Made by a program: the position numbers and the translations under genes. A stretch of DNA of 33,438 nt, taken from assembly GCA_025927955.1 (NCBI GenBank), contig JAICKK010000018.1:1-33438 (forward strand), read 5' to 3'. This document shows, piece after piece, positions 9,455-33,438 of the stretch. Every line of letters starts with the position of its first letter. Positions within the stretch are counted from its first letter, which is position 1. This stretch comes from Nocardioidaceae bacterium. GTDB lineage: Bacteria; Actinomycetota; Actinomycetes; Propionibacteriales; Nocardioidaceae. The notes below the pieces were generated by a model. That model saw nothing but the letters and a program-made list of their open reading frames with translations. It searched no databases and had not been told where the DNA came from.

Positions 9455-10324
9455 TCATCGGTTCGCGAGCACCTTCGCCAGCGCCGCGATGTCGGCGGGT
9501 CCCACGCGGCAGCAGCCGCCCACGTACTCGGCTCCCGCCTCCACCCAGCGGGGTGCCAGCGTCACGTCGAAGGCGGCGGTCCCGCTCCAGGTGTGCGTGC
9601 CGCTGTCCCAGCCCTCGCCGGTGTTCGGGTAGGCGACCCCGGGCTTGCCGGTGACCCGGCGCGCGGTCTCGAGGGCGGGCAGCACGTCGCCGGGGCGGCA
9701 GCAGTTCACCCCGGCGGCGACGACCGCGGTGCTCCCGGCGACCACCGCGAACGCGTCGTCGAGCGGCTGGCCGGCGCGGGTGCGCGCATCCGCGACCGAG
9801 TACGACAGCCACGCCGGCACCCCCAGGTCGTCGAGCAGGGCGACGAGGACCGCGGCCTCGTCGAGGTCCGGGACGGTCTCGACCGCGAGCAGGTCCGGGC
9901 CGGCCGAGGCGAGCAGGTCGAGGCGGGGGCCGTGGAAGTCGCGCAGCGCCCCCGCGGACAGCCCGTAGCGGCCGCGGTACTCCGACCCGTCCGCCAGCAC
10001 CGCGCCGTACGGGCCGACGGAGGCCGCGACCAGCCGCCGGCGGCCGTCGGCCGCCAGCTCGTCGCGCACCTCCCTGGCCAGGGTCACGCTGCGCCGCAGG
10101 AGGGCCGCGGCCCCGTCGCGGTCGAGCCCGGCTCGCACGTAGCCCTCCACGCTGGCCTGGTAGCTGGCGGTGGTGACCACCTCCGCGCCCGCGAGGTAGT
10201 AGGCCCGGTGCACCGCCGCGACCTCGCCCGGGGAGTCCCGGAGCAGCCGGGCGGTCCACAGGTCGTCGTCGAGGCGGTGGCCGCGCGACTCCAGCGCGTT
10301 GGACAGGCCGCCGTCGAGGATCAT
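9455..10324 (-). CDS. mmuM: Homocysteine S-methyltransferase
   Basis: ILDGGLSNALESRGH, TTASYQASVEGY, GVNCCRPGDV and GGCCRVGP cysteine motifs. Confidence 0.88.
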   Translation of the reverse strand: MILDGGLSNALESRGHRLDDDLWTARLLRDSPGEVAAVHRAYYLAGAEVVTTASYQASVEGYVRAGLDRDGAAALLRRSVTLAREVRDELAADGRRRLVAASVGPYGAVLADGSEYRGRYGLSAGALRDFHGPRLDLLASAGPDLLAVETVPDLDEAAVLVALLDDLGVPAWLSYSVADARTRAGQPLDDAFAVVAGSTAVVAAGVNCCRPGDVLPALETARRVTGKPGVAYPNTGEGWDSGTHTWSGTAAFDVTLAPRWVEAGAEYVGGCCRVGPADIAALAKVLANR

Positions 10325-25698: not shown

Positions 25699-27123
25699 TC
25701 AGGCGGTGAGGACGAGGTTGCGGAAGGAGGCCTCGAGGCGGGATCCGCCGGTGAGGCGTGGCGCACGCGGGTGGCCGCCCGGTGCGGGCGGGGGGTGGCT
25801 GCGGTGGACGTGGCCCGTGGGGGTGGTGGTCTCCACGACGCCGTCGTCGAGGGCGCGGGCGTGCCAGCCGGGGGCTTGCTTGGCGTAGTTGCAGGCCTCG
25901 CACAGGCCCTGGCTGTTCGCCGAGCTGGTCGGGCCGCCGTCAGCGGCGGGCTCGGGGTGGTCGGCGTGTCGGATCGGGGCGTCGCACCACGGCGTTCGGC
26001 AGACCTGGTCGCGGATGATGGTGAAGGCGCGGAGCTGGCCCTTGAACTCGCGGTGCCGGGAGTCCATCGCGACCAGGGCGCCGGTGGCGGGGTCGGTGTA
26101 CAGGCGCCGGATCCAGGCCCGCGTGTGCGTGGGCAGGTCGCGCAGCCAGGACCGGACCAGAGGCGCGGGGACCGGGCCGTAGCCGAGCAGGTGTGCCGGC
26201 TCCTCGTGCGCCAACTCCGGGTCGGCCCCGTCCGGGACGGGGTTGCGCGCCGGCTCCGCGGCGGTCGGCCGCTCCTCGCCCGCGGCTTGGTCCGGGGTGG
26301 TGGAGTGGTGGCCGAACAGGGCGGTGTCGGTCATGACGAGGTGGACCTCGACGGGGACCGCGGTAGCGGTGGCCTCTCCGGTCACGCGTTCGACGAGGGT
26401 GTCGGCCATGATCTGGCCGCGGCTGCGGTCGTCGCCGCCGGCGCGAAGGGTGTCGGCGTGTCGGGTCAACGCGGTGTGCACCGCGACACCGGCGGTGACC
26501 GGGAGCAGCCCGGTCAGGTACGTCATGGTGTCCGGCGCCGGGCGCAGCGTGACGCACCGGTCCGCGGCGGCCCTGGCGGCTCGGCGGGTGAACGCGTACG
26601 GATCGAGCCGGTAGGCGATGCGGCGCGCCTGCGCAGCAGTGCCGCCGTCACCGAGCGCGGCCAGTCCGCCGGGAAGGGCGGCGAGCTCGGCGTCAACCTC
26701 GGCCCGGTCGACCCGCGACAGGCACGCGGTCTCCCGGGCCACGAGAGTGGCGCGCCACTCGGAGACCTCCCCGTGGGTCAGCGCGGCCAGGGTGTGCGGC
26801 ATCTCTGCGACCAGCGCCTTGCCCAGTGCGAGGTGACGCGCGCCCTGGATGGGGCTCTCCCGGCGGGCCAGCCCGATCTGGGCGGCGATGCCCTTCCCGA
26901 GCTGCCGGGCGGGCGTCCCGGCGTCGCGCTGGGCTTGACGCTGGGACGTGTCGAAGTCCACGGCCAGCCGGGCCTGAGACGCGGCGCTGGCACCCTTGAG
27001 CTGCTCGAGCAGCCGCAGCTGCTCGAGCCGGTCGGAGTCGTCGACCGCGCTGAGCCGCGGCAGCGCCTCCAGCCACGCGCGCAGCATGTCCGTCGAGACC
27101 ACCTGCCCGTCACCGTTGCCCAT
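25699..27123 (-). CDS. DUF222 / HNH endonuclease signature protein (13E12-type)
   Basis: N-terminal DUF222-like helical domain; C-terminal CRTPWCDAPIRHADHPEPAADGGPTSSANSQGLCEACNYAKQAPGW HNH motif. Confidence 0.9.
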   Translation of the reverse strand: MGNGDGQVVSTDMLRAWLEALPRLSAVDDSDRLEQLRLLEQLKGASAASQARLAVDFDTSQRQAQRDAGTPARQLGKGIAAQIGLARRESPIQGARHLALGKALVAEMPHTLAALTHGEVSEWRATLVARETACLSRVDRAEVDAELAALPGGLAALGDGGTAAQARRIAYRLDPYAFTRRAARAAADRCVTLRPAPDTMTYLTGLLPVTAGVAVHTALTRHADTLRAGGDDRSRGQIMADTLVERVTGEATATAVPVEVHLVMTDTALFGHHSTTPDQAAGEERPTAAEPARNPVPDGADPELAHEEPAHLLGYGPVPAPLVRSWLRDLPTHTRAWIRRLYTDPATGALVAMDSRHREFKGQLRAFTIIRDQVCRTPWCDAPIRHADHPEPAADGGPTSSANSQGLCEACNYAKQAPGWHARALDDGVVETTTPTGHVHRSHPPPAPGGHPRAPRLTGGSRLEASFRNLVLTA

Positions 27124-27129
27124 GGTGAC

Positions 27130-27158
27130 ATTGTATCCGAACATACGTTCGGGAACAA
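27130..27158 (-). promoter_or_regulatory. LexA/SOS box within a candidate leaderless promoter
   Basis: On minus strand: TTGTTC (27158-27153), 17-nt spacer containing CGAACGTATGTTCG (27151-27138), TACAAT (27135-27130); 6 nt then ATG at 27123. Confidence 0.8.
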
Positions 27159-27273
27159 GTCGAACGGCGCCTGGAGGCTCGGGTGGCCCGGCGACCGAGC
27201 GGCTGCGCGGTCGGTCGTCCCGCGATGAGTAGCCTGACAACCCGCAGGCACCATGTCGCGGAAGGGAGCCGGG

Positions 27274-28032
27274 ATGGCGCAGGAGCAGAGGGTGGCCGTC
27301 GTCACCGGGGCCGGTCGCGGCATCGGGGCGGCGGTCGCGGCACGGCTGGGTGCCGACGGGCGGGCGGTCGCCTGCCTCGACATCGACGAGACGGCTGCTG
27401 GCGAGAGCGCGCAGCGGCTGCGGGCCGACGGCGTGCGGGCCGACGGGTTCGTCGCCGACGTCGCCGACGAGGACGCCGTCGAGCGGGTTGTCGCCGAGGT
27501 CGCCGAGCGGCTGGGACCCCCGACCGTGCTGGTGAACAACGCCGGCGTGCTGCGCGACAACCTGCTGTTCAAGATGTCCGGCGACGACTGGGACACGGTC
27601 ATGTCGGTGCACCTGCGTGGCGCGTTCCTGATGACCCGCGCCACCCAGCGGCACATGACGGAGGCCGGCTGGGGGCGGGTGGTGAACCTGTCGTCCACGT
27701 CGGCGCTCGGCAACCGGGGACAGGCGAACTACGCCGCGGCCAAGGCCGGGCTGCAGGGGTTCACCCGGACCGTGGCCCTCGAGCTCGGCCGGTTCGGCGT
27801 CACCTGCAACGCGGTGGCACCGGGGTTCATCGTCACCGACATGACCCGAGCCACCGCCGAGCGGGTCGGTCAGTCCTTCGAGGAGTTCAGCGCGGCCCGC
27901 GTCGCCGCGATCCCGGTCAACCGTCCCGGGCAGCCAGAGGACGTCGCCGACGCGGTCTCGTTCTTCTGCTCCGAGCGTGCCGGGTTCGTCTCGGGGCAGG
28001 TGCTCTACGTCGCCGGGGGACCGCGAGGCTAG
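27274..28032 (+). CDS. SDR family oxidoreductase (FabG-like)
   Basis: VAVVTGAGRGIGAAVAARL, NNAGVLRDNLLFKMSGDDWDTVMSVHLRGAF, S..Y..AK (STSALGNRGQANYAAAK), NAVAPGFIVTDMT. Start 27274 preferred over 27253 (GGGAG upstream). Confidence 0.92.
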   Translation: MAQEQRVAVVTGAGRGIGAAVAARLGADGRAVACLDIDETAAGESAQRLRADGVRADGFVADVADEDAVERVVAEVAERLGPPTVLVNNAGVLRDNLLFKMSGDDWDTVMSVHLRGAFLMTRATQRHMTEAGWGRVVNLSSTSALGNRGQANYAAAKAGLQGFTRTVALELGRFGVTCNAVAPGFIVTDMTRATAERVGQSFEEFSAARVAAIPVNRPGQPEDVADAVSFFCSERAGFVSGQVLYVAGGPRG

Positions 28033-28627
28033 GTGACCACCCGCACCGGCGCGCGGAGGTGACCACCTGCACCGGCGCGCGGAGGTGGCCGCGTCGCCTT
28101 GGGCGCGGAAGGTGGCCGTGGTTTCGAGGCCTCGGCTAGCGCCTCGGCACCTCAACCAACGCGCGCGGCCTCGGAGCCCGTCGCTGGTTGAGGTGCCCGA
28201 GCCCCCAGGGGCGAGGGCCTCGAAACCACCTGCACCGGCGCGTGGAGGTGACCACCTGCACCGGCCCGCGGAGGTGACCGCGTCGCCTTGGGCGCGGAAG
28301 GTGAGCGTGGTTTCGAGGCCTCGGCTAGCGCCTCGGCACCTCAACCAACGCGACGCGGCCCCCGGGCCCGCCGCTGGTTGAGGTGCCCGAGCCCACGCTG
28401 GTTGAGGTGCCCGAGCCCCCAGGGGCGAGGGCCTCGAAACCACCCGCACCGGCGCGCGGAGGTGACCACCTGCATCGGCGCGCGGAGGTGGCCGCGTCGC
28501 CTTGAGCGCGGAAGGTGAGCGTGGTTTCGAGGCCTCGGCTAGCGCCTCGGCACCTCAACCAACGTAGACGCGCGGAGGTGGCCGTGGGTTCGAGGCCTCG
28601 GCTAGCGCCTCGGCACCTCGACCGACG
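28032..28627. repeat. Composite REP-like repeat array between convergent genes
   Basis: 26-nt modules GGTGACCACCTGCACCGGCGCGCGGA; forward elements TGGTTTCGAGGCCTCGGCTAGCGCCTCGGCACCTCAACCAACG at 28119, 28308, 28522 and a diverged copy at 28585; inverted elements CGCTGGTTGAGGTGCCCGAGCCCCCAGGGGCGAGGGCCTCGAAACCACC at 28182 and 28396. Confidence 0.92.
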
Positions 28628-29156
28628 TCGGCCGGTAGTACTTCTTGTACATCGTGTGCCGGAACACGAACCCACCGAGCGGCCCGAGCCAGCGCAGGAT
28701 CGGCCGCATGTGCTTGTTGTCGATGAGCTCTATCAGGTTGCCGTCGGGGTCCTTGACGAAGAAGAACGTGTGCCCCTTGGGCGACTGCTCGGGTGGGCTG
28801 ACGATCTCGACGCCCTTGCTGACCAGGTAGTCGTGCCAGCGGGCGGTGTCGCGGACGTTCATCGAGAAGTGCGTGACCCCGGGGCGGCTCCACTCCACCT
28901 CCGCCGGAGGCTGCAGGGTGGGTGTGAACTCGAAGACCTCGATGGTGGCGCCGCCGGGGATCCGGACCCAGCCGATCTTCAGCCGCGGGTCGTCCGGGCC
29001 GACCGGGTCCACCCCGAAGAAGGTGCGCAGCCGGTGCGGGTCGTGGTCGAGGTTGACCCCCACGACCGGGGCGCCGAACACCTCCCAGTAGAACCGCACC
29101 GTCCGGTTGAAGTCGGCCACGGTGATGGCGACGTGGCTGAACGAATGGACTCTCAT
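28602..29156 (-). CDS. VOC (glyoxalase/dioxygenase superfamily) protein
   Basis: SFSHVAITVADFNRTVRFYWEVFGAPVVGV, HFSMNVRDTARWHDYLVSKGVEI, HTFFFVKDPDGNLIELID. Confidence 0.9.
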   Translation of the reverse strand: MRVHSFSHVAITVADFNRTVRFYWEVFGAPVVGVNLDHDPHRLRTFFGVDPVGPDDPRLKIGWVRIPGGATIEVFEFTPTLQPPAEVEWSRPGVTHFSMNVRDTARWHDYLVSKGVEIVSPPEQSPKGHTFFFVKDPDGNLIELIDNKHMRPILRWLGPLGGFVFRHTMYKKYYRPTSVEVPRR

Positions 29157-33316: not shown

Positions 33317-33438
33317 GCTGGTTGAGGTGCCCGAGCCGGCGCTGGTTGAGGTGCCCGAGCCGGCGCTGGTTGAGGTGCCCGAGCCGGCGCTGGTTGAGGT
33401 GCCCGAGCCGGCGTTGGTTGAGGTGCCCGAGCCCCCTG
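33317..33438 (+). repeat. 24-bp tandem repeat, at least 5 units, running off the window
   Basis: GCTGGTTGAGGTGCCCGAGCCGGC at 33317, 33341, 33365, 33389 (identical), and a variant GTTGGTTGAGGTGCCCGAGCCCCC at 33413. Confidence 0.97.

Follow-up and report, generated by a model that had tools for sequence, protein, structure and literature searches.

The spread of REP and REPIN repeats is generally attributed to RAYT transposases, and the insertion sequences IS1397 and IS621 target REPs. ISPpu9 is described as a further REP-targeting insertion sequence in PMC8450116. The survey in PMC6006769 describes "double foot" REPs, reports no TnpA other than subclass 1.1 (IS200) in Actinobacteridae and did not find RAYT in high-GC Gram-positives. 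DUF222-HNH proteins (REP13E12 or 13E12 family) are mentioned as a Mycobacterium repeat (PMC10589994). In the open-access papers that we searched, REP13E12 / 13E12 is nowhere linked to REP-like repeats, and neither the repeat family reported here nor a DUF222-REP link is described.

The family described here resembles the REP/BIME elements of E. coli and Pseudomonas with their RAYT (TnpA-REP) in its imperfect hairpins of 35-44 nt with conserved unpaired bases, its high copy number, mainly extragenic 3' location, alternating orientation and regular spacers, and in having a partner nuclease gene flanked by the repeat. It differs in that no carrier has a Y1/RAYT gene, the candidate partner here being DUF222-HNH, and in that the GTGG/CCAC tag is present in only part of the repeat family. 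As in a REPIN, the apparent unit is two inverted REP-like hairpins around a short spacer; unlike a REPIN, each composite in the window genome combines two distinct subtypes (I and F), the spacer itself can be tandemly expanded and RAYT is absent. The REP13E12 / 13E12 cassettes of Mycobacterium are likewise multi-copy with sharply diverging flanks, but no hairpin was found with DUF222-HNH genes at the non-Nocardioidaceae loci examined. REP-targeting insertion sequences share a coding element in fixed orientation beside a REP, but their enzymes are of another family, whereas here the repeated unit comprises the leader, the ORF and in many cases the element.

The window, a 33,438-nt stretch that constitutes contig C66, belongs to a MAG of 3.79 Mb in 284 contigs (86.9% complete). 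The array at 28036-28627 occupies the entire gap between convergent SDR and VOC genes and is internal to the contig, with intact flanks. Its features and neighbours are as follows.

25699..27144, minus strand: DUF222-HNH gene (13E12 family), about 1 kb from the array, in a subclade without elements (profile search and tree)
27253..28032, plus strand: SDR gene, left, convergent (gene call)
28036..28087, plus strand: two 26-nt modules, forming an expanded head-to-head spacer that has no I element on its left
28119..28158, plus strand: element F copy 1, 40 nt (repeat and pattern search)
28159..28184, no strand: tail-to-tail linker, 26 nt
28185..28228, minus strand: element I copy 1, 44 nt (pattern search)
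28229..28307, plus strand: head-to-head spacer, 79 nt, about three 26-27-nt spacer units (the usual spacer is 25-29 nt; 53-55 and 79 nt are expansions)
28308..28347, plus strand: element F copy 2 (pattern search)
28375..28398, plus strand: duplicated tip of element I, 24 nt (TGGTTGAGGTGCCCGAGCCCACGC; repeat search)
28399..28442, minus strand: element I copy 2, 44 nt (pattern search)
28443..28521, plus strand: head-to-head spacer, 79 nt, second copy
28522..28561, plus strand: element F copy 3 (pattern search)
28585..28624, plus strand: element F copy 4, degenerate, which runs into the 3' end of the VOC gene (repeat family, sequence and gene call)
28602..29156, minus strand: VOC/glyoxalase gene, right, convergent (gene call)

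The first-pass annotation had divided this gap into macro-units 189 and 214 bp apart, and a 169-nt repeat with just this spacing is present at 27993 (77%), 28182 (reference) and 28396 (96%). A 52-nt F block recurs at 28110, 28299, 28513 and 28576 (94-96%) and the 26-nt module is paired at 28036/28062, 28225/28251 and 28439/28465. That module had been taken for an independent third motif; it does recur, but it is the ordinary 26-27-nt head-to-head spacer, tripled to 79 nt. The element earlier called near-inverse is also present, and can now be placed more precisely: it belongs to the same family as the forward element, of which it is the second subtype (I), and faces the other way. The anatomy shows that the macro-units were built by tandem duplication of whole composites, spacer and I tip. 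The element pattern gives five matches in the window against none in 100 dinucleotide shuffles. The degenerate F copy 4 provides the last codons and the TAG stop of the VOC gene (sequence 28602-28630); an element tip also ends a gene at locus L190 (about 9660-9680), where the left gene finishes GCT GGT TGA. The 24-nt I tip, repeated once in the array at 28375, occurs at the contig end as five head-to-tail copies (33317..33438, plus strand), and the end at 33438 is probably a break inside a longer array.

The two main subtypes in the window genome, F (40 nt, with a 38-nt variant) and I (43-44 nt), stand head to head, and the basic unit is an rc(I)-26/27-nt spacer-F composite, comparable to a REPIN. 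Head-to-head spacers are mostly 25-29 nt; a small number measure 53-55 nt, and both of those in the window 79 nt. The shortest tail-to-tail gap is 4 nt (ACGC or GCGT) and the longest 63 nt. Neighbours in these two arrangements greatly exceed tandem ones. Both subtypes follow the formula TGGTT[TC]GAGG-X-(TC)-Y-loop-Y'-(TC)-X'-[CA]CCTCAACCA, in which compensatory changes in the core maintain the hairpin and the unpaired TC bulges are conserved. The fold energies of single elements are unexceptional (z -1.0 to -1.8 versus shuffles) and covariation was therefore used instead. Among 27 distinct 42-nt elements 88% of cells pair, and in this class 31 cells are altered on both sides compared with 13.7 after shuffling (0/500), every slid control being lower; the invariant outer pairs are uninformative here. 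The 35-nt class shows a G-C to A-T exchange. One composite of the array, at 28185-28347, folds well beyond its shuffles (z = -6.3). An Rfam search returned no curated-family match and sub-threshold miRNA matches only, and a search of the array for intrinsic terminators gave no match. Canonical REPs have GT[AG]G at the hairpin foot; here 81% of the copies from named species have a G before TGG, as do about half of the F and about 60% of the I copies in the window genome. Nocardioides copies mostly show GTGG at the 5' and CCAC at the 3' end.

The family was counted with the pattern TGGTTTCGAGG-N-CACCTCAACCA, which has constant ends and a variable core, alongside a reversed-pattern control. The window genome contains 209 exact copies (105 forward, 104 reverse; control 0), so the motif is not confined to this locus, a point on which the first-pass annotation had called for a genome-wide count. 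The element was found in 74 of 299 Nocardioidaceae genomes, at 0 to 163 copies each, with no control matches; named carriers of the family include many Nocardioides together with Aeromicrobium, Janibacter, Pimelobacter and one Glaciibacter record. About fifty clusters, the SDR-VOC array among them, represent this high-copy hairpin family of Nocardioides-type soil bacteria. The intergenic and convergent bias proposed earlier for checking is visible in the 47 clusters on sampled contigs of the window genome, none of which lies mostly within a gene; of the 23 with both neighbours, 11 sit between convergent, 11 between tandem and one between divergent genes. Among 100 clusters at the loci of named species, 13 were classed as genic, in some cases perhaps because of over-long gene calls. 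As 24 of the 47 sampled clusters sit at contig ends, the assembly evidently breaks at arrays, and exact array copy numbers are provisional pending long reads.

A comparison with relatives had also been proposed earlier: at two other clusters tested across the genus (L190 and L178) the flanking genes are adjacent in relatives and the array is absent, while target-site duplications and junctions are not definable there, the relatives being about 78% identical. Inverted pairs dominate and the relatives' gaps are empty, with no recent single insertion with defined junctions among those compared. At the SDR-VOC gap itself, relatives have a different gene downstream of SDR; two of these loci (L204 and L206) carry unrelated long inverted repeats (GGTAGTCCGTG... 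and CCCCCGATAGTCCGTGAC...) just 3' of the SDR orthologue. In Nocardioidaceae the family thus forms a dispersed repeat, mostly in 3' extragenic positions, and is absent from the orthologous sites checked in relatives. Its high copy number, alternating orientation and imperfect hairpin, together with its extragenic 3' location, its bias towards convergent gaps and the strong fold of one composite, uphold the REP/BIME-like organisation recognized at the outset.

ORFs around the elements from many genomes were clustered to find recurrent neighbours, and the protein family recurring nearest to the elements was DUF222-HNH. Other neighbours (ABC transporter, SDR and others) recur as well, but at inconsistent distances, and were rejected as partners. 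Twelve genomes supplied a sample of 87 DUF222 genes, and 26 of these are preceded by an element at no more than 300 nt. The expectation is 0.58, with element density set approximately at 1.5 times the number of exact copies; the gene counts, which include non-independent paralogs, are inflated. The nearest upstream element lies on the opposite strand from the DUF222 gene in 31 of 31 cases, the B variant (TGGTTTCGAGAC...CTCCTCAACCA) included. A set of 103 pattern-scan loci, gathered before DUF222 came into consideration, contains DUF222-HNH at 23 loci, 18 of them with an element within 600 nt upstream, and the nearest such element has the same opposite-strand orientation in 17 of these 18. On a tree of 95 proteins the element label needs 16 changes versus 31 in shuffles, and element-bearing genes are spread over several divergent clades. 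HNH domain matches are weak (E about 1e-3, below the cut-off); DUF222 was matched in three of five element-linked proteins scanned, and of the two without it one had no match at all. At the level of gene order, these data demonstrate an oriented linkage of the element to DUF222-HNH genes. At L260, L319-L330 (genome G251), L308 and L315 (G209), HNH genes are preceded by the main family in alternation with a sister family, TGGTTTCGAGAC...CTCCTCAACCA, and G209 also has GGTCTCGACGGGCGCTCGCTGGCGCTCGCTGCTCGACCACC repeats.

The boundaries of the HNH cassettes vary among genomes. Paralogous cassettes in G209 and G004 (83-94% identical) are homologous from about the outer edge of the element, and those in G209, G251, G231 and part of G087 and G159 diverge directly after the stop. 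In several G180 paralogs homology often begins only about 30 nt before the start, excluding the element, and continues beyond a terminator-like hairpin. In three G209 cassettes the stop is followed, 16-19 nt further on, by an inward-facing element, a feature of few cassettes only, and these right-hand elements give a head-to-head layout like that of the gene-less composites. Most DUF222 genes, in Nocardioidaceae and beyond, are without an element, which indicates that the enzyme family does not need it. In other families no element was found upstream of DUF222 genes at 30 class-wide loci or in three paralog sets, and the link is therefore limited to Nocardioidaceae and perhaps some neighbours. 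DUF222 cassettes outside Nocardioidaceae are sharply bounded and lack this element, which gives the association the look of a lineage-specific partnership. DUF222-HNH paralogs from outside the family also occur as multi-copy cassettes at L361-L380 (G350, G431 and G398), where they have no hairpin, and homology in the G350 and G431 cassettes begins about 90-110 nt before the start codon.

Within the window genome PF02720 finds two DUF222 genes (on C66 and C80), neither with an element directly upstream. The genus of the window also includes G004, whose element-linked HNH protein was used as a query. Relatives of this protein lie where C101 ends and where C172 and C210 begin; C101 carries 8 copies in its array, the largest sampled. 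HNH linkage in the window genome is predicted only, because in this fragmented genome the G004-type matches lie at contig ends or show no detected element, none being beside an intact one.

We give an even chance to the reading that a RAYT-independent REP/REPIN-like family was amplified locally into the BIME-like block seen here, and that the most likely partner of this family is the DUF222-HNH cassette. Somewhat short of that, it is possible that DUF222-HNH would recognize and nick the structured hairpin and so drive the copying of its own cassette and of gene-less inverted pairs in Actinobacteria. In this reading the cassette consists of an element on the opposite strand, a leader, the HNH ORF and its stop, and those with an inward-facing element just after the stop show the composite layout with a gene in the spacer. 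The enzyme may nick at or beside the hairpin, which could spread the cassette and, in trans, the gene-less composites, and these may then expand via recombination or slippage.

The hairpin may instead be a landing site, with homing-like DUF222-HNH cassettes inserting at a fixed side of a pre-existing element or in the head-to-head spacer and the element spreading by other means; such cassettes would be similar to REP-targeting insertion sequences such as IS1397 or IS621. We regard this as rather unlikely. It would account for the identical orientation of the element beside divergent HNH subfamilies, easier to explain by repeated targeting than by repeated recruitment, for the G180 cassettes that are homologous only downstream of the element, and for the sharply bounded cassettes outside the family. 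However, at three G209 cassette sites compared with Nocardioides relatives the element and the cassette are both absent and no element-only locus was seen, so target and passenger models are not separated by this comparison, and no alternative mobiliser of the element was found. An improbable reading is that the elements are kept by selection as regulatory hairpins, whether bidirectional transcription terminators, mRNA 3' stabilisers or gyrase sites, and that duplication and gene conversion multiplied them without a dedicated enzyme. The convergent and 3' bias with avoidance of divergent gaps, the different hairpins 3' of the SDR gene in relatives and the strong composite fold are in keeping with such a role; the patchy distribution (74/299) and copy numbers of 0 to 163 among genomes of one family, the empty orthologous gaps and the array's lack of an intrinsic-terminator match are not, and the HNH association would be left unexplained.

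A classical RAYT/REP system, with its transposase missing from the assemblies or lost after the spread, is very improbable. The GTGG/CCAC ends of Nocardioides copies resemble the "double foot" REPs of PMC6006769 and the window assembly is incomplete, but the profile PF01797 (Y1) has no match in the window genome or in any of the 74 element-bearing Nocardioidaceae genomes, nearly all of them more than 90% complete, while control genomes were detected as expected. Among all 299 Nocardioidaceae genomes it matches only in G016 and G009, both without the element. The GTGG tag is not conserved in the window genome (A or G equally for F), and the restriction of Actinobacteridae to IS200-type TnpA in the same survey also speaks against this reading, which is largely refuted; the RAYT-type (Y1) partner suggested by the first-pass annotation was rejected on its absence from the window genome and all 74 Nocardioidaceae carriers. 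Two genomes of another family in the same order (G065 and G070, L049-L058) have 7-9 Y1 transposase matches each. What we describe is thus a structured, dispersed REP/BIME-like family without RAYT. That it arose as an assembly artefact, as the many breaks at arrays in this 284-contig MAG might suggest, is hardly credible: the same family and pair architecture recur in isolate and single-contig genomes, which refutes an artefact as the source of the family and leaves the exact copy number here provisional.

The arrays explain the frequent breaks of this assembly at these sites. With up to about 200 copies, the family is RAYT-less and tightly linked to a nuclease family abundant in Actinobacteria, including Mycobacterium. 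This linkage supplies a candidate substrate for the uncharacterised DUF222-HNH nucleases and offers a second, candidate route to REP-like repeats.
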